Source: Isoetes taiwanensis | Taxonomy: Eukaryota; Streptophyta; Lycopodiopsida; Isoetales; Isoetaceae | DNA length: 64,000 nt | Direction of reading: 5' to 3' | Assembly (NCBI GenBank): GCA_021234155.1 | Contig: JAJEKV010000098.1 | Location: 547,084 to 611,083 of the forward strand | Part shown: positions 14,061-38,405 of the stretch, one piece after another | Position numbering within the stretch: position 1 is the stretch's first letter | Layout: every line of letters starts with the position of its first letter | Made by a program: the position numbers and the translations under genes | Notes under the pieces: model-generated | Told to the model about the DNA's origin: nothing | The model's input: the letters and a program-made list of their open reading frames with translations, nothing else | The model's database searches: none

Positions 14061-15585
14061 TGTTTATCCATGTGTTATGCTTTCTAGGATACCCAATCAT
14101 TGGTGCTACAGATCATGTTTATTTCTTGCCTTCTCCATCTCTGGCCTGTTTATCTCTGGCCTGCTGCAAATTATGAATAGCACGTACCCTACTTCCAACA
14201 CGTGCCTGATTCTGCCACTATTGACATGTTAATCAAATTCCTAAAACATCATTCGAGGAAGAGAAAAGATTGCCACCCTTTGGATTCTTTGCATCTATTC
14301 ATGCTGATCAGAGATCGATCTCAATCCGAACAATGCAATGGATCTTTTGCTCTCCAAAATATGACCTTATTCTCATTTGAAACTAAGCTGAACAACCCAC
14401 CTGGAAATGCACAGTCTAAAGAAAAAGAGGCATAGAGAGCAATCCTCTAACTGCTGGACATGTCTACAACTTGCTTATCTCCTGCAAAACCACACAAACA
14501 TCATGCTAAACACAACCAAACAAAGAAACACAATAAAGTACTATCCTATAGTCGAATGTTGTCTTGCATTTGAAATTAGAACAATGATGGTATGCCACTG
14601 CTCAAAACCAATTTCCAGCAGATTACCTTCCCTTTTTCATAGAGAAGATTTGCTCATGGCATGCTGGAACCATCAATGTTATTTTAATTATAACTGATGA
14701 TTTCAGTTGCTGCAACCATGCAGCTTTTTCAACATATGTATCTCTGATTTCCATAATTACAGCTTACCAGATGCTCATCTATGCGGCAAACAATGTGGCT
14801 TAACATCTTTGTCGTTCATAAATGCTCTTGTTCTTCTCTAGTAGCAATGGTTATCTTACATGCCTGCATTTCATTAGCCTATGCATTTAATGCCTGCATT
14901 GCATTAGCCTACATGCCTGCATTGCCAACATAATCTCAAAAAAGACATGCAAACAAAATCTGAACCCATCGTTCAATACACTTTAGGTAAAATGCATAAT
15001 ATCAAATTTTTACTATAATAATTGCCTTACCTAGCATTATGATTTTGAACTTTCAACCCTTTGGGCAGCTTTCGAAACGATGTTTAAACTGGACACCAAG
15101 CTGCAACAACTGCAACAACTCCAACTTCTGCCAAAATATTTTTCAAATAAGAGAGGTTCAACAAAACAAAAACAATCGCTTTTGAACTGATGCAAATTGT
15201 GAGAAAGATGGTCAGAAGAATGCTACAATATTTTACAGCAGGTTAAACATACATAGCCTTCTACTAACAGAGCGGCTATGAATATAGAGAACACTGTCTT
15301 AAAGGCAATGCAAAGATCTAACGCTGGCAGGGATAAAACATTGAAGAAAATAAGGGATAGTATAGCATGGAAATGTGATTATTTCGTATTTTTAATATAA
15401 TTTTGTGCATGCATGGGAGGGTTTGTGGGCAGACTTCAGACACAATGAATGCCTTACCTAGCACTATGATTTCAAATCTCTGACTCTTGCATCTCCTGCC
15501 ATACTTCAACTACATTCTTCAGTAGTACTGCAGCAGATAAATTTATTTCAGGCAAGGAGCTTCAGATGCATTACTTTGGAAAAAA
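14061..15585. other. No confirmed gene; short tandem CATGCCTGCATT words
   Basis: Around 14860-14930 the phrase TGCCTGCATT(G/T)CATTAGCC is repeated in tandem about three times. A GCCTTACCTAGCA(T/C)TATGAT phrase occurs at about 15025 and 15452. Otherwise I see no supported gene. Confidence 0.4.
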
Positions 15586-15587
15586 GG

Positions 15588-15765
15588 AGGAGCCATAAGC
15601 GCACTGAGAACGAGGATAATTGGAACCATAAACGTATGGAGCGACAGCTACAGAAGGCCAATCCTCGGATTTAATTTGTGAAGTCTCTATGCCTTGGTAA
15701 TCGAAACCCAAGGATCTATGAGCTAACCTATGTTTGGTTAGCCAAGCTGATAATCGGCCCTACAT
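15588..15765 (-). pseudogene. ndhJ: Truncated plastid ndhJ (5' part)
   Basis: NdhJ is a subunit of the plastid NADH dehydrogenase-like complex. The minus strand has ATG at 15765-15763 followed directly by TAG (15762-15760), then [34 protein letters not shown] and RSQCAYG. About 59 codons of a protein of about 158 remain, then homology stops. The second-codon TAG replaces a conserved Gln (CAG), the pattern expected of a U-to-C editing site. Ser in IETS and Pro/Ser in [11 protein letters not shown] sit where other plants have Leu or Phe, as expected for unedited C-to-U sites. Confidence 0.88.
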
Positions 15766-15857
15766 TTCATTATCTGTAGAAGTATTTGTAGAAAAATCCA
15801 ACGTATTAATTAAAGTAAAAATTTTGATGGCTCGTTCTTTCGTATCAGATCCCTCTC

Positions 15858-23847: not shown

Positions 23848-24224
23848 GGTTTTAAGAGAAGGAATGTTACAATGATCAATGGCTAGGAATGTTACAATGA
23901 GTGAAGGAATGTTACAATGATCAATGGCTAGGAATGAACGATAAGAAGGAATGAGCGATAAGAAGGGGAACTTATTATTATTATATAAACTTGCATCGAT
24001 TTGATGCAACAAGCAATGCATATGGAATGAATGGCTTAAATATTTTAATCCAAATGGCTGAGGACTTTCTTGATTAACCAGTACTTTAATATGTAGCATT
24101 ATAACAGGGGGTTGTTTTTGTATTTTTATACTTTTTTTCCTAAGGTTTTTATATGATTTGATGACAGTATTTCATGAGACGTACTAATTGGTACATCTAG
24201 AGTGCGCATACTCTCATGACGCTT

Positions 24225-26369: not shown

Positions 26370-26850
26370 TAGGGCCCGAAGGGCCCAAATTTTTTTTCAG
26401 TATAACAACCAACTCACAACTACCATTAACATTATTAACACAGACCATTGTATCCAACACATTTAAATTAAAATCCCCCTTAAACCCCCTTTGGTTTGGG
26501 TGCATATTCACATGGGGGTAGATGCATGAAAGGGTGTCCAATATTTTTTGTATAATGATGTAAAAATATACACTAGCCTAAAGTGATTATAAGGTAAAAT
26601 TTAAATTCTACATTAGTTGCCCACAATTAATGCAACTTGTCCACGTGAGAGGTTTTCGCCATTATTATTGGCAACCCACAAATTTGGCGCAATTTTGAAC
26701 TCCCCCAAACCCCCCGTGTGAATATGCACCCAAACTAAAGGGGGTTTAAGGGGGATTTTAATTTAAATGTGTTAGACCCAATGGTTGTGTTAATGATAGT
26801 TATGTGTTGGTTGTTGTACTAAAAAAAAAATTTGGGCCCTTCGGACCCTA
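26370..26850. mobile_element. Foldback MITE with ~150-bp inverted arms
   Basis: The left arm (26370-26519) starts TAGGGCCCGAAGGGCCC and ends GGGTGCATATTCACATGGGG. The right arm (26711-26850) is its inverted copy, ending TTTGGGCCCTTCGGACCCTA. About 190 bp of unrelated DNA lies between. It has no coding capacity. Related single arms occur at 17880-18021 and 38284-38405. Confidence 0.82.
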
Positions 26851-28930
26851 AAAAAAGCAAACATACATAAAAACATGTAAAACATGCAAAACATGTAGCC
26901 TGGGATATTAGGGCTACTTTATGGTTTCCATTCGATCCGCATTCGATCATGGAGCTTACCAAAATTACAATAAGGTGGTAGAAAATACGAAAGCATAGCA
27001 AATATTCTACTACATGAAGTAAATGAAATAAGTGAGAATCGGAAGAATAAGCTTCAACAAATAAGAACCAACTTTCTTTGAATCTCGAAAAATCGCTGGA
27101 TTCTAGGTTAACAAACAATGAGAGCCAACTTTGCCAAATCTCAAAAAAGATCCCGAATTCTAGGCTATGTATCAAAGTTTCTTATTTTGATTTTCTTTCC
27201 AAGCCCGTTAGATGACAAGAAAAGCCACACATTGGCCATCTTTGACTTTGGTCATTATTCTCAACACCGCACGAGGCTAAAGTGCTAAAGAAAGAGAAAA
27301 CAAGAGCAAACAAGCAAAGAAAATAAATCAAAAGAAGTGTTACAAAGTCAAGTGCGTAACTCTTTTATCGCCCCTACATTATAATGCCATTTTGCAAAAG
27401 ACCATGATGCTTTTGGCGATGTTTTATTCTATAAAACCTAATACAACTTCATTCAAGACACCGCAGAATCGATTTGGGAATGCGTGAACCTCCTCTCAAA
27501 GCATTCTCCCACCGACTTACATGGAGGATTTATAAGTGGTACTCTCCAATCAGAAAGTAAGGAGAAAATTGTAATACTCCAAACAACGCCCTTACCCACC
27601 AGCCTCTCATGGTGAGAATCTCTATGAAGACATTGCTTTCTTTAATTGTCGTAGGCTATAAATCTCTACAAAGCCACTAAGCATAGCTCTTGGGCAACTG
27701 AAGTTCGTTAGCCCTCAACGTGGGGGTATCTTTGAGGTGCTTTTAAGCAGAATGGAACTCAAACGAAAAGAAAATGCAGTCCTCAATTCGAAGAATCAAT
27801 CCTCTAGTAGAACCCCTGGATGGTTTCATCTCTCCTTCGTACATATAATGGAAAACCCACTTTTGAATGCCATCGGTGCATCCCTTGAAAAGCACAAAAT
27901 GTTAAGTCTTAAAAAAAATGAACTTCCTTTTGCAATCCCATCATGCCAACTTCAATCTGATGGTTTGACTATTACCAAGGAGCTGTCATATCATTTGCAG
28001 AATGATTCAGCCATGCATCTTTCAGTTAGGCTGCATGAAACAAATGGAACTTGGAGCTGCCTCAGGATCTCAATATGACAAAATTCAAGATTTACACTAC
28101 TGGGACAGCAAACTACATGGACCTCTGATAGATGCCAGGCACAGCAGGGGAGATGTCCATAAGATGTCCCTTTTATAAGACGTCCATAACAGAGAAACAA
28201 GGAAGTAATTCTCTCTTTCCATTTCACAGATGTATGCACGTGCAAATGCTAAGAGGAGACCAAAAACAGTTCCAAACAAGACCATAAATCACATCTTGAA
28301 CCTTACCATCTTCATGCCAATCAACTCGACAACGTGAACAATGCACAATATCAAATGATTACGGGATAAGGCAACCGCTTTGTTCCCAAAACTGCAACCA
28401 TTGCAGTAGAATGCCACGCTCTAGAGCGAATCGTATTTGGTTTTTTGGTACGTTAAAAGTCCCCATTTCCATCGCTTGTCATTCTTTTCGAGCACAGATC
28501 ATGAAGTGGCCAACAGGATCGATCCACCGCATGAATTCCCTACAATTTCCATAGCATGTTCTAAACTCAAGTCTTATCAAACACATTTGCAGAGGAATAC
28601 GGATATAGTAAGATCATGCGTTTGAAGTGAGTACCACCACCGAAGCCACATTCTAGATCCGTTGGCATGTACCCGGTTCGACCCCTCTTCACTACTCGCT
28701 AAGTGCGTATGATTGACTCTTTAGGGTTTCAAAAGATTCGAACATGGCAGCTTACAAAAACAGATGCAAAAACCGACACGCTTTGTGATCATGGCTCTTA
28801 TTGCCAAACACCCTGACCCAAATCCAAGCGCAGAATCGTTTTGGACTCGTCCAAATCCATCCGAATATGTATGAATGGCCCGCATAAGAAATGCAAAAAT
28901 TGAATACCTTTGTGGAAGCTAGTTCACCGT
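26851..28930. other. No recognisable gene
   Basis: Short open frames on both strands, for example 27737-28078, show no motif I can name. The segment lies inside the TIR-X candidate. Confidence 0.4.
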
Positions 28931-29040
28931 ATAACAAGGGCCGAAATCTCCAATGAATTGAATGCTTACGTGTTTTGTCCAGAGCTCCAATAACCAAACG
29001 GCACAAACAAAACCTAGAGACCTTCTCCATTCTGTCGGAT
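28930..29040 (-). CDS. Possible first exon carried by TIR-X
   Basis: On the minus strand ATGGAGAAGGTCTCTAGG opens a frame (MEKVSRFCLCRLVIGALDKT) followed by a good donor, CACGTAAGC. Upstream, at about 29225, a related AGGTCTCTAGGTTATGGT phrase recurs, and a TTTTAGGGTT word is present nearby. This looks like the 5' end of a plant gene, but no downstream exon can be joined with confidence. Confidence 0.3.
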
Positions 29041-29508
29041 TAGCTTTTATACCTCTTTTTTCTGACGCCAAATCTATGTTCCAACGGGTTAATCAATCAA
29101 GCCGAAGATTTGAGTTGTGGGATTATAATAAAAGCTGCTTTGAATCACCACAAACTCGGCAGATTTTTTTTGATTTTCGAGATCGAGATCCCTACGGCAA
29201 AAACCATAACCTAGAGACCTAATTTTGGAGTTAACAAGAACCCTAAAATGAGCTGCTCGAGCTTTGCATGTCGAGCAAAATAAAATGTAATACGAAAAAT
29301 AGAACTTAACGGAGAAATATATGATATATGGGTCTACACTATTGAAAAGAGGCATTAAAATTCATTCAAGCCTATGCAAATACAATGCGCACTCTAGATA
29401 TACTAATTAGTAGGCCTTGTGCAACACGCCCATCAAATCATATAAAACCATTGGGAAAATCGCATAAAAAAAAAATACAAAAACCCCCTGTTATTATGCT
29501 ACATATTG

Positions 29509-31030
29509 GAATCCTCTTTCTTCACGACAGATCGATCTTTGCATATGGAAGAAATAATTTCGGATCATATGGAAGAAACAATTTCGGAAGCATCGAATTC
29601 TAATCCTTTTCTTGATGAGGACTTATCATGCATTTACGGGACAGCCAAAGAAGATCGAAAAAAAGGAATTGTGAAATTTGGATATGGGACAAAAACAGAT
29701 TAGAAGGAAGGTGAATCGGTCCAGCCGATCACATAGTAAAGCAAGTTTCCAAGTTGAATCCAAAACAACAAAAATACATTTGTCTGAAAGATTGCTACGG
29801 GATCATAGATTAAACTTTATTTGACCCGTTATTGGAAAGCCTAAAAGAGGCTATTGTAAAGAGAAATTTATTGGAAAACCTTAAGGATGGCCTTCAAGAA
29901 GTGAAAAGCTGCTAATAGCAATGATAAACTTGCTGACCAAATACTCCAATTCTTGCCATGGTAGTTGGAAAGGAAGGAGAATTACAACAAACTTCATTGG
30001 CGAAAATGCTCCAAATTACATCCTAGAAATATGAAGCTAGCGCAGAAAGAAGAAAAAGATGTCATTGTGTGGAGCAAATTTATGGGCATTGGCAGGTCGA
30101 AAAGCCAGAAGAAATGCCATAGATCAAGCTATGAAGGATAGAGTTGCTCAATTACGGTTAGATAATACAAAAAGTGTCACAAAAAAAGTCGGAGATGTCA
30201 TGAAGAAGAGGACTGAACCGAGTCAATACATTGACATTACTAATGTATGGTAGTATTTTTAGTCTAAATAGAATTCTAGGTTAGAATGTAAAAGTCAAGT
30301 AGATCACGTTTGCAAGATTCGGTGAACATCAAATGTACTCTAGTTATGATTTGCAGTAGTCATGTAGATCTATCCTACATTTCTTGTAGTGTAAATGCAA
30401 ATGTTTTTACGTAAATAACTTTTAAGATGTGCTCAAGATGTAGGCATGAATATGTAAAAAGTGTAGGATTGTAGTAGATGTCAATGTTGATATGATTTAC
30501 ATTTAGTCCAACTTGAAAACAAATTACAAAATGTGTTATAGATGTAAGCATGAGAAAGTGATGTACAATAATGTAGGACTGTAGATGTCAAGAAAATATG
30601 TGAATTCTTCCTATGGAGTACATTTTATGTAGGATGTGAGGTTTTGGGAGATAATTTACATAGATGTGAAATTTTTCAGAATGTGTGAATGATTCTAACC
30701 TTTGTAATTTTGAAGTTGAACCATACGAGCTTTGTTGATCAAAGATCCGTAAGTCAAGATCGGCATTAGACAGCTTTTGAATACTTAAAACCCTCTTGCA
30801 TACCAAAAGCTAAAGGAGAGAAATACATGTTGTTGTGAAGAAACGAGCGAACAGATTTTATTCAAGAAGGCATTCAATATGATGAGGTCAAATTTCTTGA
30901 GAATTGTTTTGCAATTGCATTGTGTGTGCTTTTCCGTGGCTAATGCTGAATTTGTCAAGCCAAGAAGAAAATTTTGATAATGTGAGCACGCTTTGGAGAG
31001 CCATGGTATGCCGAGAAGGCGGCGGTGAGG
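29509..31030 (+). other. AT-rich upstream part of the transposase-like region
   Basis: A 64-residue basic frame at 30059-30250 (GRKARRNAIDQAMKDRVAQL) may be an N-terminal piece of the gene that follows. From about 30290 to 30680 words such as GATGTAGGCATGA, GTAGATGTCA and TGTAAATG recur in a non-coding stretch. A similar TGTAA-rich stretch lies at 35950-36400, on the other side of this candidate element. Confidence 0.4.
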
Positions 31031-32480
31031 AGTGGCACAAGCTAGCATGTATCAACTCAAAATGTGAAAGTTGTGGGAAAAAATTAATTGAGTTGTGTCC
31101 TAGAGAAAAGGATGAAAGCGTTGAAGAATCTGTTGATTGGCAAGTTTATAATTATGTGTAAATGAACCTGAAGAAGGAACTTCGAAAAGGTGAAGTTAAT
31201 TGACAAGAATGGCGGTCTAAAGGATATATTGGACAAACATGTTTGATCATATGTCCAAGTTTATATATCACAACTTTGTGGCACATTGGCAAAGCAAGCG
31301 GTTTAAGGAATCCATCTGAACACCGTGATGATTGATGCTATCGGTTGTTGATTTCTCAAAGAATTATACCTTGAAGCCATTTAATGAGATTCAAAGCACA
31401 ACATTGGTACAATGAACAAATTAGTATTTTGGTTCATATTACCATGTTCAAGGTAAATGGAAAATTGAGGAAATGTGTGCATTCGTTTATTTTGGATGAC
31501 AAGATTCATGATACACACTGCATTACAAGATGCATTCAAGATGCACCTCAAATGGTTGCAAGAGAATGGTCTGGCCATATGATATATCATTTGGTTTTGG
31601 TCCGATGGGTGTGGACCCCAATTTAAGTCAAGGCGAGCATTCTATCATGTAACAAGATATCATCAACAATATAAAAATAAAAAATAAGGACATGGGAAAG
31701 GCACACCACGATGGAGAAGGGCAATTGATAAACCTGTGGCTTGAAGCTTTAACAAAGAAAAAAGGATGGAAAGGTAGTAAAAAATGCAGAAACCGCCAGG
31801 AGGTCTTGAGGAGAAAAAATGAGATGTGGAGAGGGTATTTTGGGAGGTGATTGACATTGATCGATCCCAAAAGATTTGATGTGCTTCCAGTAAAAGGGGT
31901 GCAATCAATTCATTGCGTGTCGTCAATAGCATAAAACGACCCAAAGTTATTCAGGCAGGCCTCTTTCATGTTTTTGCAAGGCATGCATAAATTTTGATTG
32001 GCTTTGCTTGTGAGGTCACACCATTGTAAGGTGGGAGTTGAGAAAACTAGAGCCTACTAATAGGATCGATCTTGGAGATGGTGAGAATGAGGTGGAGGAT
32101 TTATGGGCAAAATGACGCCACAATATCGATGAGACACCGGCAGTTGGTGATTATTTTGGAGCATTCTGACTCCGCACAATCATGAGGGGTCCTTATTATA
32201 TCCTCCAATGCACGTATTGAAACATGCACTTGAGGCAGATACTATGGATGACTATGGAAACTTATTTTATAGTGGTAATGAGGTTATTACGGGTAACTAC
32301 TTTGAGCTGATACACGGCCGCCATCGGTACAAGTTACTAAAAGGCAAAGCGTGTTTTTGTCCATCCCGAAGTCGGTAATAGGGTGAGATTTGCATTACAG
32401 CCAGTTAAACACAAGATAAAAGGTGTTGCTTATGCATATGAACTGTCTCAATACTAGCACGAGATGCTACTAGGAAGTCT
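31031..32480 (+). pseudogene. Decayed transposase-like gene (DFSKNYT / SDGCGPQFKS family)
   Basis: Plus-strand frames give, in order, a Cys-rich segment WHKLACINSKCESCGKKLI, then DFSKNYTLKPFNEIQS (Asp at 31350), SDGCGPQFKSRRAFYHVT (Asp at 31604), GHGK with AHHDGEGQLINL after a frameshift (about 31689-31735), and later HVLKHALEADTMDDYGNLF and ELIHGRHRYKLLKGK. I know this motif order (D-F-x-E/K-N-Y, SDGCxxQ[FY]KS, HGKGxxDG) from an uncharacterised, transposon-like protein family found mostly in animals. An RNase H-type transposase fold is my inference from the spaced acidic residues. Several stops and frameshifts make it a pseudogene. It converges on the Ulp1 gene at 33.9-37.8 kb. Confidence 0.6.
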
Positions 32481-33129
32481 GCCAGAGATTGTAGATGTTA
32501 TGTGAACTCTATTTTTACATCAGATTTACATAGTTAGATATTTCTGAATTTTTTTGTAGATGCGCCATGATTTGTAGTCTTATGTAATGTAATTAAGTGC
32601 ATGCAACTCTATAGAGTAATTAAGAGATGTTATTTGTTGTACACCCTTAATATTTTGGAATTGGCTCTAGGCGTAAGAAAGAGTTATTATTTAAAAAGAG
32701 TTGCTTGATTGTTGTACAAGGCAAACCCATAGTGAGGACATATTTATATGCAAATATGAAGATGCTGCAAAAGACAATAGTGTATTTATATATTGATATT
32801 CAATAGAAAAAAGATGTTCACATTGATTGTAGATTGTTATGAATATTACACAACTCTTGCATGCATGTACATATCATCCCATGGACCTAGCCTTAGCCGT
32901 GGACCTGCATCATAAGAATACAACATGAAGGATAGAAGATATAAATTGCATATGCACTTATGATAATACTCAAATACCTTGCTTTATGAAAACATGTCAA
33001 GGCTTATGAAAGTGTGTCCAATAATGCATCTACAACAAAGCAACCTCTTCATCATGTAATCCATGAAATGCCTGGAGTCAGAGGATGAGAGGTTGCCTCC
33101 GAAGTTTCCAGAACCATCACACTATGTCA

Positions 33130-33230
33130 GAATACAAGTGTTGGGGATTTAGCAAGCACCCATGTCATGAAGGCTTGTTGATTTAGCAAGCATGAAGATA
33201 TGTTGGGGATTTAGCAAGCAAGAGAGTCTT
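33130..33230 (+). repeat. Short repeat of GATTTAGCAAGCA
   Basis: The phrase GGGGATTTAGCAAGCA occurs at about 33143 and 33203, with GTTGATTTAGCAAGCATG at about 33177. It is a small degenerate tandem array between the two converging genes. Confidence 0.7.
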
Positions 33231-33869
33231 GTAGATGGAAGTAGCAACCAACATCTACTTCTATCAATAACACAATTGGGTCATGATCTATCTTTAGATT
33301 GAAGCCGCTCGACTAAAGGTTGGCTTGGTTTGATAGCATAAAATGATGGAGAATAAGTGTAAATGCAATTTTTGTGGCTTTCAATGACAACACATTGACA
33401 AGAAGAAAAAAAGTGCAAGCTTGGGACAAGAACATCAACTTGGATATATTCTGATAGGTGCAAGTCAAATGTTAAGAACTAAATACATACAACATTTTGA
33501 TCCCTTTGTGAATCTCTCTTTTTTATAGTTTAAGCATTGCAGGTGCAATTACATTCAAATTGAACTGAGTATTGAGATAAGTGTATGGCGAGCCAAATTT
33601 ATAACCCGTTACATGGTAGCAGATTATCAAACAAGGTAGCAAGTTATAGCCTTTAACATGGCAACAAATCTATCTCTATAACAATCTATCAAATACAATG
33701 GCAGCATCCAAGTAAGATTCAACTACCACTGGTCCCTTGAATAGCATCTCCATCTTCACAGTGCTTAAGTAGAGCATCTGCCAAAACTTCTCGCCGTGAG
33801 AGCGCATACTGATGTGAAATCCAGCTAGATGTAACCTATGAAATAAGCAATAAATAATACACCAATGTT

Positions 33870-34940
33870 AGAATCAGTTCCCTACATGAAGCGTACGCAA
33901 GTTGAGAAAAGAACTTACTTTCAATTCCCTTCCAGAGACAAGACAGTTGACAAATTTATGCATGAAGCCCATCACATACAACCCGCAAGACGTCAAGTCG
34001 GGCTGTTGAGGTACTTCGAGATGGTCAATCCCCTTCACATTGTTTCTCCTCACAAAATCCATGCCATTGGAGGTTTGACTCATTGATATAGTCAATATTT
34101 GTGTATGCAATCTGCACATGTAAAAACATTCATGTAAAATGGAAAAGAATAATTCTGAAAGAAAGAAGGTTGAAACATACCCTCTAATTGCCTTTTCGTT
34201 TGTCGGATAGCCTTTCAGGCTGTTTAAGATGTAAATTGATGGTGCATGGAGAATTTTATCATTACCTTCTGCGAAAGCAAATATGGCCAGCACAAAGTGC
34301 TCATTCTCAAGTACAGGTAGAAGAATATACTGCACTTTAGCCATAACTAGCCCTTTAGTTCCCTGTTTTACTATGTCTATAATAGATCTTGACGTGTCAA
34401 TTCTTCTCTTATTTTAGCCTCCTTGCGAAATAGTTATAAGATGGGTAAAAATAAATCTTACTTTTCCATTCAGGGCAAAGTATCAATACAGTTTAACAAG
34501 AGAATAAAACCTAACTTAATTACGTAATTACATACTCTATTTAAAGCAAAAGGCCAACCTTATTTTCTAAAACCCACTTTACCTTTTTTATCCCCTATCC
34601 CCGCACATTTAAACACTATCAAAACCACGCTTCTACCCCTCTCATAGCAACACCTAAGGCAAGACAGCTTAGCTGCAGCCTATTCTATCTCTAACCTCGG
34701 CAAGCTAACCTATTCTAGCCTACAAGGCAAAAGCACAAAGATATTACTCCCGCCATAGAGTTCCACAAGGCGACTAGTCATTTTTTGATTTGGTTGTACA
34801 CAAATCTTTCAACGCCAATATCCACCACTTTCATTGGAGGATCGGGGAGGATTTGTTCTTGAATGGCACAAAAGGAGTGTAGGAAGACAACTTCTTCGTC
34901 ACATCTCTACAATGAAGGATCAAAGTGTAAGTGTCAAATA
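33870..34940 (-). CDS. Ulp1-type (C48) cysteine protease domain, spliced
   Basis: The 34344-33874 frame reads ILLPVLENEHFVLAIF, SIYILNSLKGYP and LEVPQQPDLTSCGLYVMGFM. These are the His, Asp/Asn and Gln-Cys blocks of Ulp1/SENP-like peptidases, which cleave SUMO-type conjugates or are used by transposons. His16 and Cys120 are present; the central acid is Asn41, not Asp. A GT-AG intron of 69 bp (34180-34112) separates the Asn and Cys blocks. Upstream sequence (34900-34770) reads EEVVFLHSFCAIQEQILPDP and KVVDIGVERFVYNQIKK and may be the preceding exon. A further RLVELYGGSNIFVLLPCRLE-like frame follows with stops. Many plant MULE and CACTA elements carry such a gene. It may be partly decayed. Confidence 0.7.
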
Positions 34941-34969
34941 ATGCATGATCAATAGCATAAATATATTAA

Positions 34970-35615
34970 TACCTTGGACCAATCTTTGCTTCACCGATTT
35001 ATGCCTATAAAAAGAAGTATGAGTTATTAATCCCCACAAGAACATAGCTAGAAACCATTCAACTAGCATGTATGCTTTATTAATATGCTATAAGTGCATG
35101 TCTAGCAGTTTTATGCAACACACCTTTTAGCAGATGTTGCCTCCTTTCTATCTCGAGAATTTTTTAGTCTTTGGGGTAGCATCCTCCGCCTCCATAAACT
35201 TTTTGTGTGGCCTTGGCTACAAATCTCCAAGGCCCCTTCTACATCAAGACTCTTATCTTCATCCGCTATTGATTCAAATTACAACCTTGAATATAAGTTG
35301 TTGCAAAGTCGAGAGTACTAAGAAACACGCACCGCCATAGAATCTTCAATAGGTACTTGTTGAACTTCAGAGCAAAGATTAGGAAAATTTTTGTCATCAT
35401 TCTTGCAAGCTAATTCAAATGGGGCTTTGATCTTGAAAGTAACAACCTCAAGTTTAAAAATTATCACACGGTAAAAAAGATAATGAATGTGATCACTCAC
35501 CGATGGGCTCTTTCTCGCAATGAAGCCAACTCGGGTTTCCACATCCGGGATATCCGCTTGAGTTATGCTCTCACACGAATCACACATTTTCCCAATTAGT
35601 TTATCTAAAATACAA
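34970..35615 (-). CDS. Exons upstream of the Ulp1 domain
   Basis: Consecutive minus-strand blocks have good splice borders. Exon 35612-35501 follows TTTGTATTTTAG, encodes GKMCDSCESITQADIPD and more, and ends before GTGAGTG. The next encodes APFELACKNDDKNFPNLCSE and QQVPIEDSMA, ending before GTGCGTG. The next (about 35270-35125) encodes DKSLDVEGALEICSQGHTKS and a basic RRRMLPQRLKNSRDRK that could serve as a nuclear localisation signal. A small exon near 35008-34977 encodes HKSVKQRLVQ. The phases of the last two join correctly. I recognise no domain here, but the pattern supports a real multi-exon gene. Confidence 0.5.
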
Positions 35616-36545
35616 ATGGAGCTTATAGTCAAACTTATAATACAAGAACTTACCTAGTATGGTTTTTGTCATCTCCTCATGTTGTCCCGAACACGTTTAC
35701 GCCTTCTCATTGTGATCTGACGTTGCTTTTCGGAGATGACATGGATGTGGATGGACTCAAGAGACAAATGGCGTCATCTTTTAGTTGATTTTCAGCTCTT
35801 GAGACCTCTCGAAAATGATAACTTCAACCCTTTTCCAGCAAAGATACTCTTTACACCGCATTATGACAAGTGGCATGAACGTAAGTCATACGCATTTATC
35901 CTATATGTTGTTTACATTACCACTATGTAGCTTCGGGTTTCTTGATGCTACAAGATTCGCAATTGAGATAGTAAATGCAATAAGAAACAATGAGAAATGT
36001 AAATTAGAGATAATCATAACAATAATCAGTAAAACAGATGTAAACATACATAATCATAGCATTAAGCGTAAAACAGATGTAAGACAACTGTGAATCAAAT
36101 GCAATCAAAAGCAATGTAAGTAAATTTGAGAAATGCAAGAAATGTAAGGTAGATGTACCTAAAAAGAAGAAAGCAAAATATCATCCACAAATGTAAAGTG
36201 GAAACTTAGAAAGTACATTCATATGCATTATAATATGCATCCTAATGTTATATGTAAATGTAACAAGCAAATTCATAAGGTATTTATGACAGAAGATATG
36301 TACAAAATATGAAATGAATGTGTTCATGGGGTTACATCAAATTACACTGACCTTCAAATACATTTACTTTAAGGACAACAGAAGATAAATCCATGTAAAA
36401 GCTGAATGCCAATTTGGACTTTTACCTAACAAGCAACTAGATGTCTAGATAGTAATGAAAATCACACATGTTCAAATCAAAGCAGTTGCTACAGCAGAAT
36501 AGTAAAACAAATGTAATTAGTGAAGATAACATAATTAAAAATACC

Positions 36546-36854
36546 TTATTGAGTAGAGAGTTCCATGATTTGACGCAGATCTTCAGGCCATAAACACTCA
36601 TGTATATACTGGTTTGTTGTGGAAACCTTGTATGATAGACAAAATAGACAGTAGGGATGTCCACAACATGGTAAAACCAGCAGTATAGAGTCGAGGCACT
36701 CATTGCAATTGCTACATGTATTCACATGGCCAGACGTTAATGCCCTTGATTCTGATGCAAGTAGAGGAGTAGGATGCAAGGAAATTACATCAGATTTTTC
36801 TACATATAATATCATTTCCTTTATTCTACTCTCACTAGCATCATTTGCCTCCAA
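36546..36854 (-). CDS. RING-like zinc-finger exon
   Basis: CSNCNECLDSILLVLPCCGH followed by PYCLFCLSYK has the C-x2-C ... C-G-H-x2-C-x2-C arrangement of a RING finger (E3 ubiquitin or SUMO ligase type). The last zinc pair is not clear: the expected second CxxC reads CLWPED. It lies directly downstream of a coiled-coil segment, the usual order in coiled-coil/RING proteins, and upstream of the Ulp1 exons on the same strand. The exon ends at a stop (IMELSTQ) or splices out before it. Confidence 0.5.
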   Translation of the reverse strand: MEANDASESRIKEMILYVEKSDVISLHPTPLLASESRALTSGHVNTCSNCNECLDSILLVLPCCGHPYCLFCLSYKVSTTNQYIHECLWPEDLRQIMELSTQ

Positions 36855-37255
36855 ATCCCCTCGCTGATTTCTTGGATGGCGACCTCTAATGCATGCAATT
36901 CATTTGTCAAACTCTCAATTGGCATCTTTAAGCCATTCATTTCTTCAATGAAACTAGATTTTTCCTCTTCAAAGTGGGAGGCCAAGGCCATTTGCAAATC
37001 AGTTGGTCTTTTGTCACGAGCGAAAGTCATCGGTTTGTTTAACCGAAAGGCCGTCAGGCATCCTTGCTTTGCACAAGCCTATTCAAGGTATTTTCTCTCA
37101 CCTTCTAACTTGCATAAATCAGATTCTAATGTTTTGCTTTTCTCTTTCATATCCTTCATTTTGCTCATCAAGGTAGCAGCATCCATTGATCTTCTTTCAA
37201 TCAACTTCTTCATTGCATCTATCTCACGCCCCCAAATCCGAATTGTACCTTAGTT
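36821..37255 (-). CDS. Coiled-coil segment of the same gene
   Basis: Minus-strand frames give IDAMKKLIERRSMDAATLMS, KMKDMKEKSKTLESDLCKLE and, after a TAG near 37080, LASHFEEEKSSFIEEMNGLK and LTNELHALEVAIQEI. Heptad-like spacing of Leu, Met and Ile with charged positions points to a coiled coil. It could mediate dimerisation. The TAG may be avoided by splicing or may be a decay mutation. Confidence 0.45.
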
Positions 37256-37258
37256 GTT

Positions 37259-37762
37259 TTACATTGATGATCTCAAGGTAACAACATCGGTCCAAATCGA
37301 ATCCTTTTTTGTTCTTTCTTTGCATGTACAATTGGCACTCTCTTTCACCTCTTCCCAATCAATTTTTGATGCCTTTATAGTGGAGTGCATAAGCTCGAGC
37401 AAAGTATAGAGGAATGTGATGGTTTGCAATGTCTTTCCCGCTAAAACATGCTCATAGATTGAATAAAAATCCTGCATCCAAATTGGCTTGATCCTGTTGT
37501 CTTGGTAACCTCTCACTGCTGGTGCTTCAGAACCCCAGACTTCTTGGACCACTTGCAAAAGCCCTGGGTAAATAGTATCAAAGTTATTGGTTCTAAGCTG
37601 CTTAATGCTAACCTTATCAAACTCGGGCTGCAATGGAGGTCTTTTACGCCACAAATAGTCTTCGGGTTTCCTCATTGCCGGCTTAGGAGACCTCGCCATG
37701 GGCTTCAAGGGCTTATTTCTTGGTGATTTCCGTGGGGACGTCCTTGTTGCTGGCTTCGTCAT
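37259..37762 (-). CDS. Putative first exon: basic N-terminus of the Ulp1/RING gene
   Basis: The 167-residue frame begins MTKPATRTSPRKSPRNKPLK, a Ser/Pro/Lys/Arg-rich DNA-binding or nuclear-localisation-like tail. It continues into a folded-looking region (PGLLQVVQEVWGSEAPAVRG, MQDFYSIYEHVLAGKTLQTI) that I do not recognise. The upstream 37770-37920 sequence is GC-richer than its surroundings, as at many plant promoters. It is the 5'-most piece of the minus-strand series ending in the protease, so I infer one gene, although a single spliced mRNA is not proven. Confidence 0.5.
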   Translation of the reverse strand: MTKPATRTSPRKSPRNKPLKPMARSPKPAMRKPEDYLWRKRPPLQPEFDKVSIKQLRTNNFDTIYPGLLQVVQEVWGSEAPAVRGYQDNRIKPIWMQDFYSIYEHVLAGKTLQTITFLYTLLELMHSTIKASKIDWEEVKESANCTCKERTKKDSIWTDVVTLRSSM

Positions 37763-38283
37763 GATGCTCCTCCGAAAAGCTTCAAAAATGGCCTGGGGTT
37801 TTGCTCTATCTGGCTATGGCAAGGAAGGTACAGTAGTTTTGGGGATAGAGATGTGCCTGTTTGGCTATGGCGAAGTACAAAGTCTTGGGGAATGAGCGGG
37901 AGGAGCTAAACCTCGGCGAGGGATTTTCCCACGTTCAATTTTGAAACCCACCAAACCAATTAAGACATTCTAAAATTAATGATAATATAATAAAATATGG
38001 TAGTAGGGATATTGTTTAATTTTGCATTTGTAAATGTATAAAAGTGTCCCTTCTACCCACTAAGTTCATTGAAGCGTGAGCCCCCCTAAAACTTACAATA
38101 CATGTACAAAATTAACACTATTAAATTACATTACCTCAAATCTTATAGTATTTTGCAAACCTCAATATACGTTATACAAAAACTTGTACGGGGCATACCC
38201 ACAAGCGAGGATCGCTATGTACGGTCCAGATCTTGGAATAAAGGGCAAATATGCCCATCCGACAGCTCTCGTTGCCCGAAGTA

Positions 38284-38405
38284 ACCCCCCATGTGAATAT
38301 GCACCCAAACCAAAGGGGGTTTAAGGGGGATTTTAATTTAAATGTGTTAGATGCAATGGTCTGTGTTTATAATGTTAATGGTAGTTGTGAGTTGGTTATT
38401 TATAT
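38284..38405 (-). repeat. Solo arm of the foldback element family (inverted)
   Basis: ACCCCCCATGTGAATATGCA through TTTAAGGGGGATTTTAATTT and GTTGTGAGTTGG matches the right arm at 26711-26850. It lacks the terminal GGGCCC, so it is truncated. Confidence 0.75.

Follow-up and report, generated by a model that had tools for sequence, protein, structure and literature searches.

According to the published Sola descriptions cited here, transposons of this superfamily have a DDD-type transposase, a 4-bp target site duplication (TSD) and terminal inverted repeats (TIRs) of 11-1124 bp, are mostly 2-9 kb long with some over 15 kb, and occur in Physcomitrella (PMC10741241), for which Sola1 is also listed in a table (PMC9033089). 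They are reported to be present in Azolla (PMC6786969) and, with 2739 elements, in Ceratopteris (PMC6890710), while giant Sola-1 elements are described from Ectocarpus (PMC12477816) and dictyostelid Sola2 elements with AT-rich TSDs (PMC3627910). Ginger1 elements have 4-bp TSDs and Ulp1 domains, and an Ulp1 domain is also found within certain Mutator elements (PMC2836005). AcademX is described as encoding a nuclease and generating TSDs of 3 or 4 bp (PMC10045372).

The locus analysed here lies in a 64,000-nucleotide stretch of Isoetes taiwanensis DNA (the window). It represents a DNA transposon copy in decay, most likely a cut-and-paste element belonging to the Sola superfamily. It resembles Sola in its putative DDD-type transposase (here by motif), its 4-bp TSD, its length of several kb and its short TIR of about 21 bp, which falls within the range given for Sola. 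It differs in carrying an Ulp1-type gene, which is unmentioned in the cited portions of the Sola descriptions. A 4-bp TSD is also no exclusive mark of Sola, as Ginger and Kolobok (TTAA) share it and AcademX has 3-4 bp. The published traits fit, and as the assignment is made by traits, it is worded as "Sola-like, probably Sola". The features of the window copy are compiled in Table 1.

Table 1. Features of the transposon copy in the window (window coordinates).
Feature	Position	Strand	Basis or remark
Whole transposon copy, nested and decayed	26516..38058	+	Common 5' boundary; 3' end via intact copies
5' terminal inverted repeat GGGTAGATGCATGAAAGGGTG	26516..26536	+	Copy comparison
5' part of first-exon open frame	26617-26709	+	Same open frame as 29506..30250
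Foreign insertion in element	26711..29504	.	Aligned copies jump from 26710 to 29505, with ~35 bp between
Transposase first coding exon, decayed	29506..30250	+	tblastn of C998 exon
Main transposase exon, decayed, frameshifted	30604..32505	+	tblastn of L010 and C998 open frames; profile match
Cys-rich lead-in WHKLACINSKCESCGKKLIELCPRE	31033-31107	+	Third frame
DFSKNYT motif	31350..31370	+	First conserved Asp of proposed triad
EIQS motif	31386-31397	+	Same frame as DFSKNYT and HHDGEG
SDGCGPQFKS motif	31601..31630	+	Second conserved Asp
GHGK and HHDGEG motifs	31688..31721	+	Third conserved Asp; GHGK 31688-31699, HHDGEG 31704-31721
Ulp1-type (peptidase C48) gene, decayed	33880..34506	-	tblastn to window
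RING-like Cys/His cluster, weak	~36.6-36.8 kb	-	By eye; Pfam E 0.73, below cut-off
Basic and coiled-coil region	36940..37813	-	Probably start of Ulp1 gene
3' end remnant	38044..38058	+	TIR internally deleted, ends TTCTACCC; other copies have CACCCCTTTCATGCTTCTACCC

The first-pass annotation had pointed to a transposase-like gene at 31031..32480 on the basis of a series of motifs. The gene could be identified as the transposase of a DNA transposon and the motif series is indeed present, but the proposed span was too narrow, as transposase coding remains occupy about 29.5-32.5 kb within an element that spans 26516-38058. The motifs are spread across three frames of the decayed gene: one frame contains DFSKNYT, EIQS and HHDGEG, a second SDGCGPQFKS and GHGK, and the third the Cys-rich lead-in. 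The window copy is thus frameshifted and cannot encode an intact transposase. Owing to this frame break, the pattern GHGKGxxDGxG is not found in the window itself. When a profile of other copies, one of which shows about 91% DNA similarity to that of the window, was compared with the three plus-strand frames of the window, E-values of 1.7e-85, 7.5e-63 and 4.9e-37 were obtained. The Isoetes taiwanensis assembly (1.66 Gb, 1110 contigs) contains at least 43 matches to the DNA of 31031-32480, with 79-100% identity and the window copy included (40 of 780 candidates scored). From these profile matches and genomic matches, the motif resemblance is far beyond chance.

At the protein level, at least 87 transposase matches were found in the genome (79 of 12,648 candidates scored), which are 54-100% identical except for one fragment with 41%. 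Several of the transposase frames are free of stop codons. The transposase is encoded by two exons, the first ending with ...YIDITQ and the second opening with AELYQ. The splice donor CAG|GT is present in copies C998, L010 and C439, and the acceptor TTTTGCAG|GC was read in copy L010. The main exon, which ends with EIVDVM and a stop codon, has an open frame of 551 aa in L010 and of at least 622 aa in L176; the first exon is broken in L010 and open over 269 aa in C439. Among the copies examined, none was seen with both transposase exons and the protease gene intact.

Nine family members were aligned (alignment A2); some of the rows are partial, so that the first Asp lies outside L181 and L182 and the third outside L180. 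The consensus order is DFxENY, QxxHW, HDxxFVQ, WSDGCAAQ(F/Y)K, GHGKGxHDG and the Cys cluster LSCFCxACINF, from which single rows depart. In all rows that span these positions, the Asp residues of (V/M)DF, SDG/TDG and HDG are unchanged. They form a D-x83-D-x40-D series, at positions 251/335/376 in L010 and 235/319/360 in L176. It had been suggested that the acidic residues of DFSKNY and SDG could belong to an active site with RNase H-like fold. In agreement with this, the Asp residues of DF(S/A)ENY and SDG and a further one in HDG are all conserved, and the three may represent the catalytic residues of a DDD-type active site. Purifying selection has acted on the transposase: among the open main-exon frames, dN/dS between subfamilies is 0.115, 0.120, 0.149 and 0.180, and 0.342 for a close pair (15 pairs were compared, 10 of which are too saturated at silent sites to give a value).

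To define the element boundaries, copies were fetched from the genome. Window position 26516 is the common 5' start of 15 of the 20 fetched copies, while in the remaining five the 5' alignment is absent, shorter or a few bases off. The 3' end was located with the downstream stretches of four copies, and 3' ends were placed by a tail search (best 40 of 399 candidates scored). Intact ends consist of GGGTAGAAGCATGAAAGGGTG and the complementary sequence, and they vary slightly from copy to copy. By the criterion of our script, both termini are present in 14 of the 19 copies examined, while five, including the window copy, are without one of them. In the 14 copies the TIR of about 21 bp has 0-2 differences from GGGTAGAAGCATGAAAGGGTG. 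The element is 8847 bp long in copy C998 and 9563 bp in copy C439.

Copies with both ends are flanked by a 4-bp TSD in 13 of 14 cases, the exception being C430, which has both termini and no TSD. The window copy lacks a TSD, and its 3' TIR is damaged. The duplicated sequences (TACA, GTTT, GACT, CACT, GGAT, TAAA, AGAA, AATT, AGCA, AATT, AGAA, TCTG and GACA) have no fixed motif and are not AT-rich, in contrast to those of dictyostelid Sola2 (PMC3627910). For two copies, the flanks were joined with one TSD and searched in the genome. For C1053, four matches were obtained, of which one, at C940, is an uninterrupted site over the full length (95%) and a further, partial one spans the junction, the remaining two being the copy's own flanks. 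Copy C998 sits inside an abundant repeat, and of its best 40 scored candidates (from 2975) all 40 span the junction, at 97-99%. These uninterrupted empty sites confirm the two insertions.

The surroundings of the window copy contain additional repeats. A repeat of about 120-150 bp occurs at 26370-26518, 26711-26850 and 38286-38404 (86-96% alike); it is inverted, flanks the 5' fragment of the element on both sides and recurs past the 3' end. It is probably another, nested transposon that scrambled the window copy. A second inverted repeat pair (29385-29507 and 24088-24209, 81%) terminates at the right border of the foreign insertion.

The element contains a second gene, which is convergent with the transposase gene. 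The homologous open frame in copy L013 matches the Ulp1 family PF02902 in Pfam with an E-value of 2.4e-9. The minus-strand gene probably starts with a basic coiled-coil region, followed by a Cys/His cluster and then by the Ulp1 protease domain. By eye the cluster may be a RING finger, with weak support from Pfam (E 0.73, below cut-off). We counted the cases where an Ulp1 match lies within 12 kb of a transposase locus. Among the matches listed, this holds for 31 of 79 transposase loci, and in all 31 cases the Ulp1 match is downstream and on the opposite strand. Random placement gave 1.67 pairs on average and 5 at most, compared to the 31 observed. The count is based on 79 of 87 transposase rows (eight second pieces of the same loci were dropped) and on 148 of 155 Ulp1 matches. 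Most of the listed Ulp1 matches contain stop codons, for which decay or introns could account. A candidate SNF2 helicase motif, AGKTLQTI, on the minus strand at about 37.45 kb was rejected, as the open frame of C998, a better copy, reads DFYTIYEHVVSRKDIANHH at this position, and AcademH, characterized by a helicase, was therefore dropped.

Relatives of the transposase were sought in several collections. In Pfam (E-value limit 10, with the HMMER filters on, which hide most hits above about 0.1), the nine A2 members had no meaningful match, the best one (E 0.0035) being to an unrelated family and below its cut-off. Transposase models exist in Pfam for MULE, hAT, CACTA, PIF/Harbinger and Tc1/mariner, and neither these nor any other standard plant transposase model were among the hits of these nine members. 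The A2 members did not match any NCBIfam model, no relative was found among the PDB sequences (best E-value 1.5), and plasmids and phages gave no match. Six of the transposase motif strings were absent from the literature text that was searched. Among the viral and genome contigs searched, in part with patterns from a poorly conserved stretch, no related locus was confirmed. Pattern GHGKGxxDGxG hit 3 viral and at least 119 prokaryote stretches, among which, as far as listed, only one (L101) looked related; two more patterns hit 2 and 19 stretches of viral contigs, none of them related.

L101 is a 3.1-kb contig (1-3099) from a Lake Erken metagenome that was binned as a delta proteobacterium. 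Its three minus-strand frames match the transposase profile with E-values of 0.0053, 0.23 and 0.28 and rank first when 143 loci are read in six frames (L121 follows with 0.59). They cover profile positions 144-259, 317-361 and 398-457 in this order. No counterpart of the conserved SDG was seen in the L101 readings. Each match is weak by itself, but the colinear order is persuasive, and to judge from these frames L101 may be a broken and very distant relative of the transposase. The contig is probably a stray eukaryotic one, a contaminant of the metagenome-assembled genome. The latter did not match the same profile, and this silence is uninformative since L101 itself had matched weakly.

The first-pass annotation had considered an under-described superfamily. 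This proposal is weakened, as a 4-bp TSD together with a DDD transposase already is the published description of Sola, which is reported in moss and ferns. It is possible, though we regard it as rather unlikely, that the element represents a separate and undescribed superfamily of land plants, protists and perhaps animals, devoid of a Pfam model and characterized by a D-x83-D-x40-D transposase with HGKGxHDG at the third Asp, by a 4-bp TSD and by a convergent Ulp1/RING gene. The lack of meaningful matches in Pfam, NCBIfam and PDB and the possible colinear relative in L101 speak for it, while the structural traits match those published for Sola. The absence from Pfam says little, as we know of no Pfam model for Sola.

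Another named superfamily with TSDs of 3-4 bp, such as AcademX or Ginger, would share the TSD length and, for Ginger1, the Ulp1 domain, but we consider such an affiliation improbable. All 13 TSDs are exactly 4 bp long. The nuclease of AcademX is of the XPG type, and among the Pfam hits of the element pieces scanned there is no nuclease model. Ginger1 has its Ulp1 domain at the C-terminus of an integrase-like core, whereas here it is encoded on the opposite strand and no integrase model is among the Pfam hits of the nine A2 members. Also, the Ginger1 TSDs are described as CCGG/CCGT-specific and the TIRs as 40-270 bp long (PMC2836005), in contrast to the unspecific TSDs, none of them CCGG or CCGT, and the TIR of about 21 bp found here. 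The Ulp1-carrying Mutator elements share the Ulp1 domain, but plant MULEs are described with TSDs of 7-12 bp (PMC10741241), compared to 4 bp here, and no MULE model was among the Pfam hits of the A2 members. Kolobok and piggyBac, which target TTAA (PMC9587614), were rejected, as this sequence is not among the 13 TSDs.

Horizontal transfer had also been raised, and this claim found no support. The only point in favour of a recent transfer from animals into this plant lineage is that similar motifs may be common in animal proteins, the first-pass annotation having named cnidarians, arthropods and fish. However, this genome contains subfamilies with protein identity down to 54% to the query, i.e. 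about 45% different. In alignment A2, identity to L176 is 51-58% for other subfamilies, and between deep subfamilies the synonymous differences amount to 0.73-0.82 of sites, which is near saturation. Such deep divergence implies that the element has long resided in this genome or has entered it many times. It speaks against a recent transfer, which we consider highly unlikely. An ancient entry from animals would be compatible with it.

For the Sola-like element we propose the following mechanism, which is based on sequence features. The DDD transposase, with Cys clusters before and after a putative RNase H-like core, would bind the inverted repeats of about 21 bp and excise the element by cut-and-paste. 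Insertion at staggered cuts would then create a duplication of 4 bp whose sequence is not fixed. The Ulp1-like protease from the convergent gene is probably accessory and might remove SUMO or mature proteins of the element. As no Pfam or NCBIfam model matches this multi-copy family, annotations may list its copies among the unknown genes of the host. With the ends, the TSD, the intron and the protease partner, a proper library entry can be made, and it can be tested whether animal relatives are vertically inherited or transferred. If the element belongs to Sola, the surprise is modest, as this kind has already been reported in moss and ferns.

Over the transposase region, a second subfamily (copies L019-L028) has a similarity of about 76-78% to the window copy. 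Its 5' ends are 97-100% identical (best 40 of 448 candidates), and judged by these near-identical ends the subfamily looks young, as after a recent burst. Downstream of copy C439 (L031 and L021 joined), there is an open frame of 565 aa (joined coordinates 14089-15783), which by eye resembles a plant receptor-like kinase. PF00504, the chlorophyll a/b-binding family, has 66 matches in the genome, which indicate a photosynthetic host; among 14 control genomes, Synechococcus was the only one that gave a signal.
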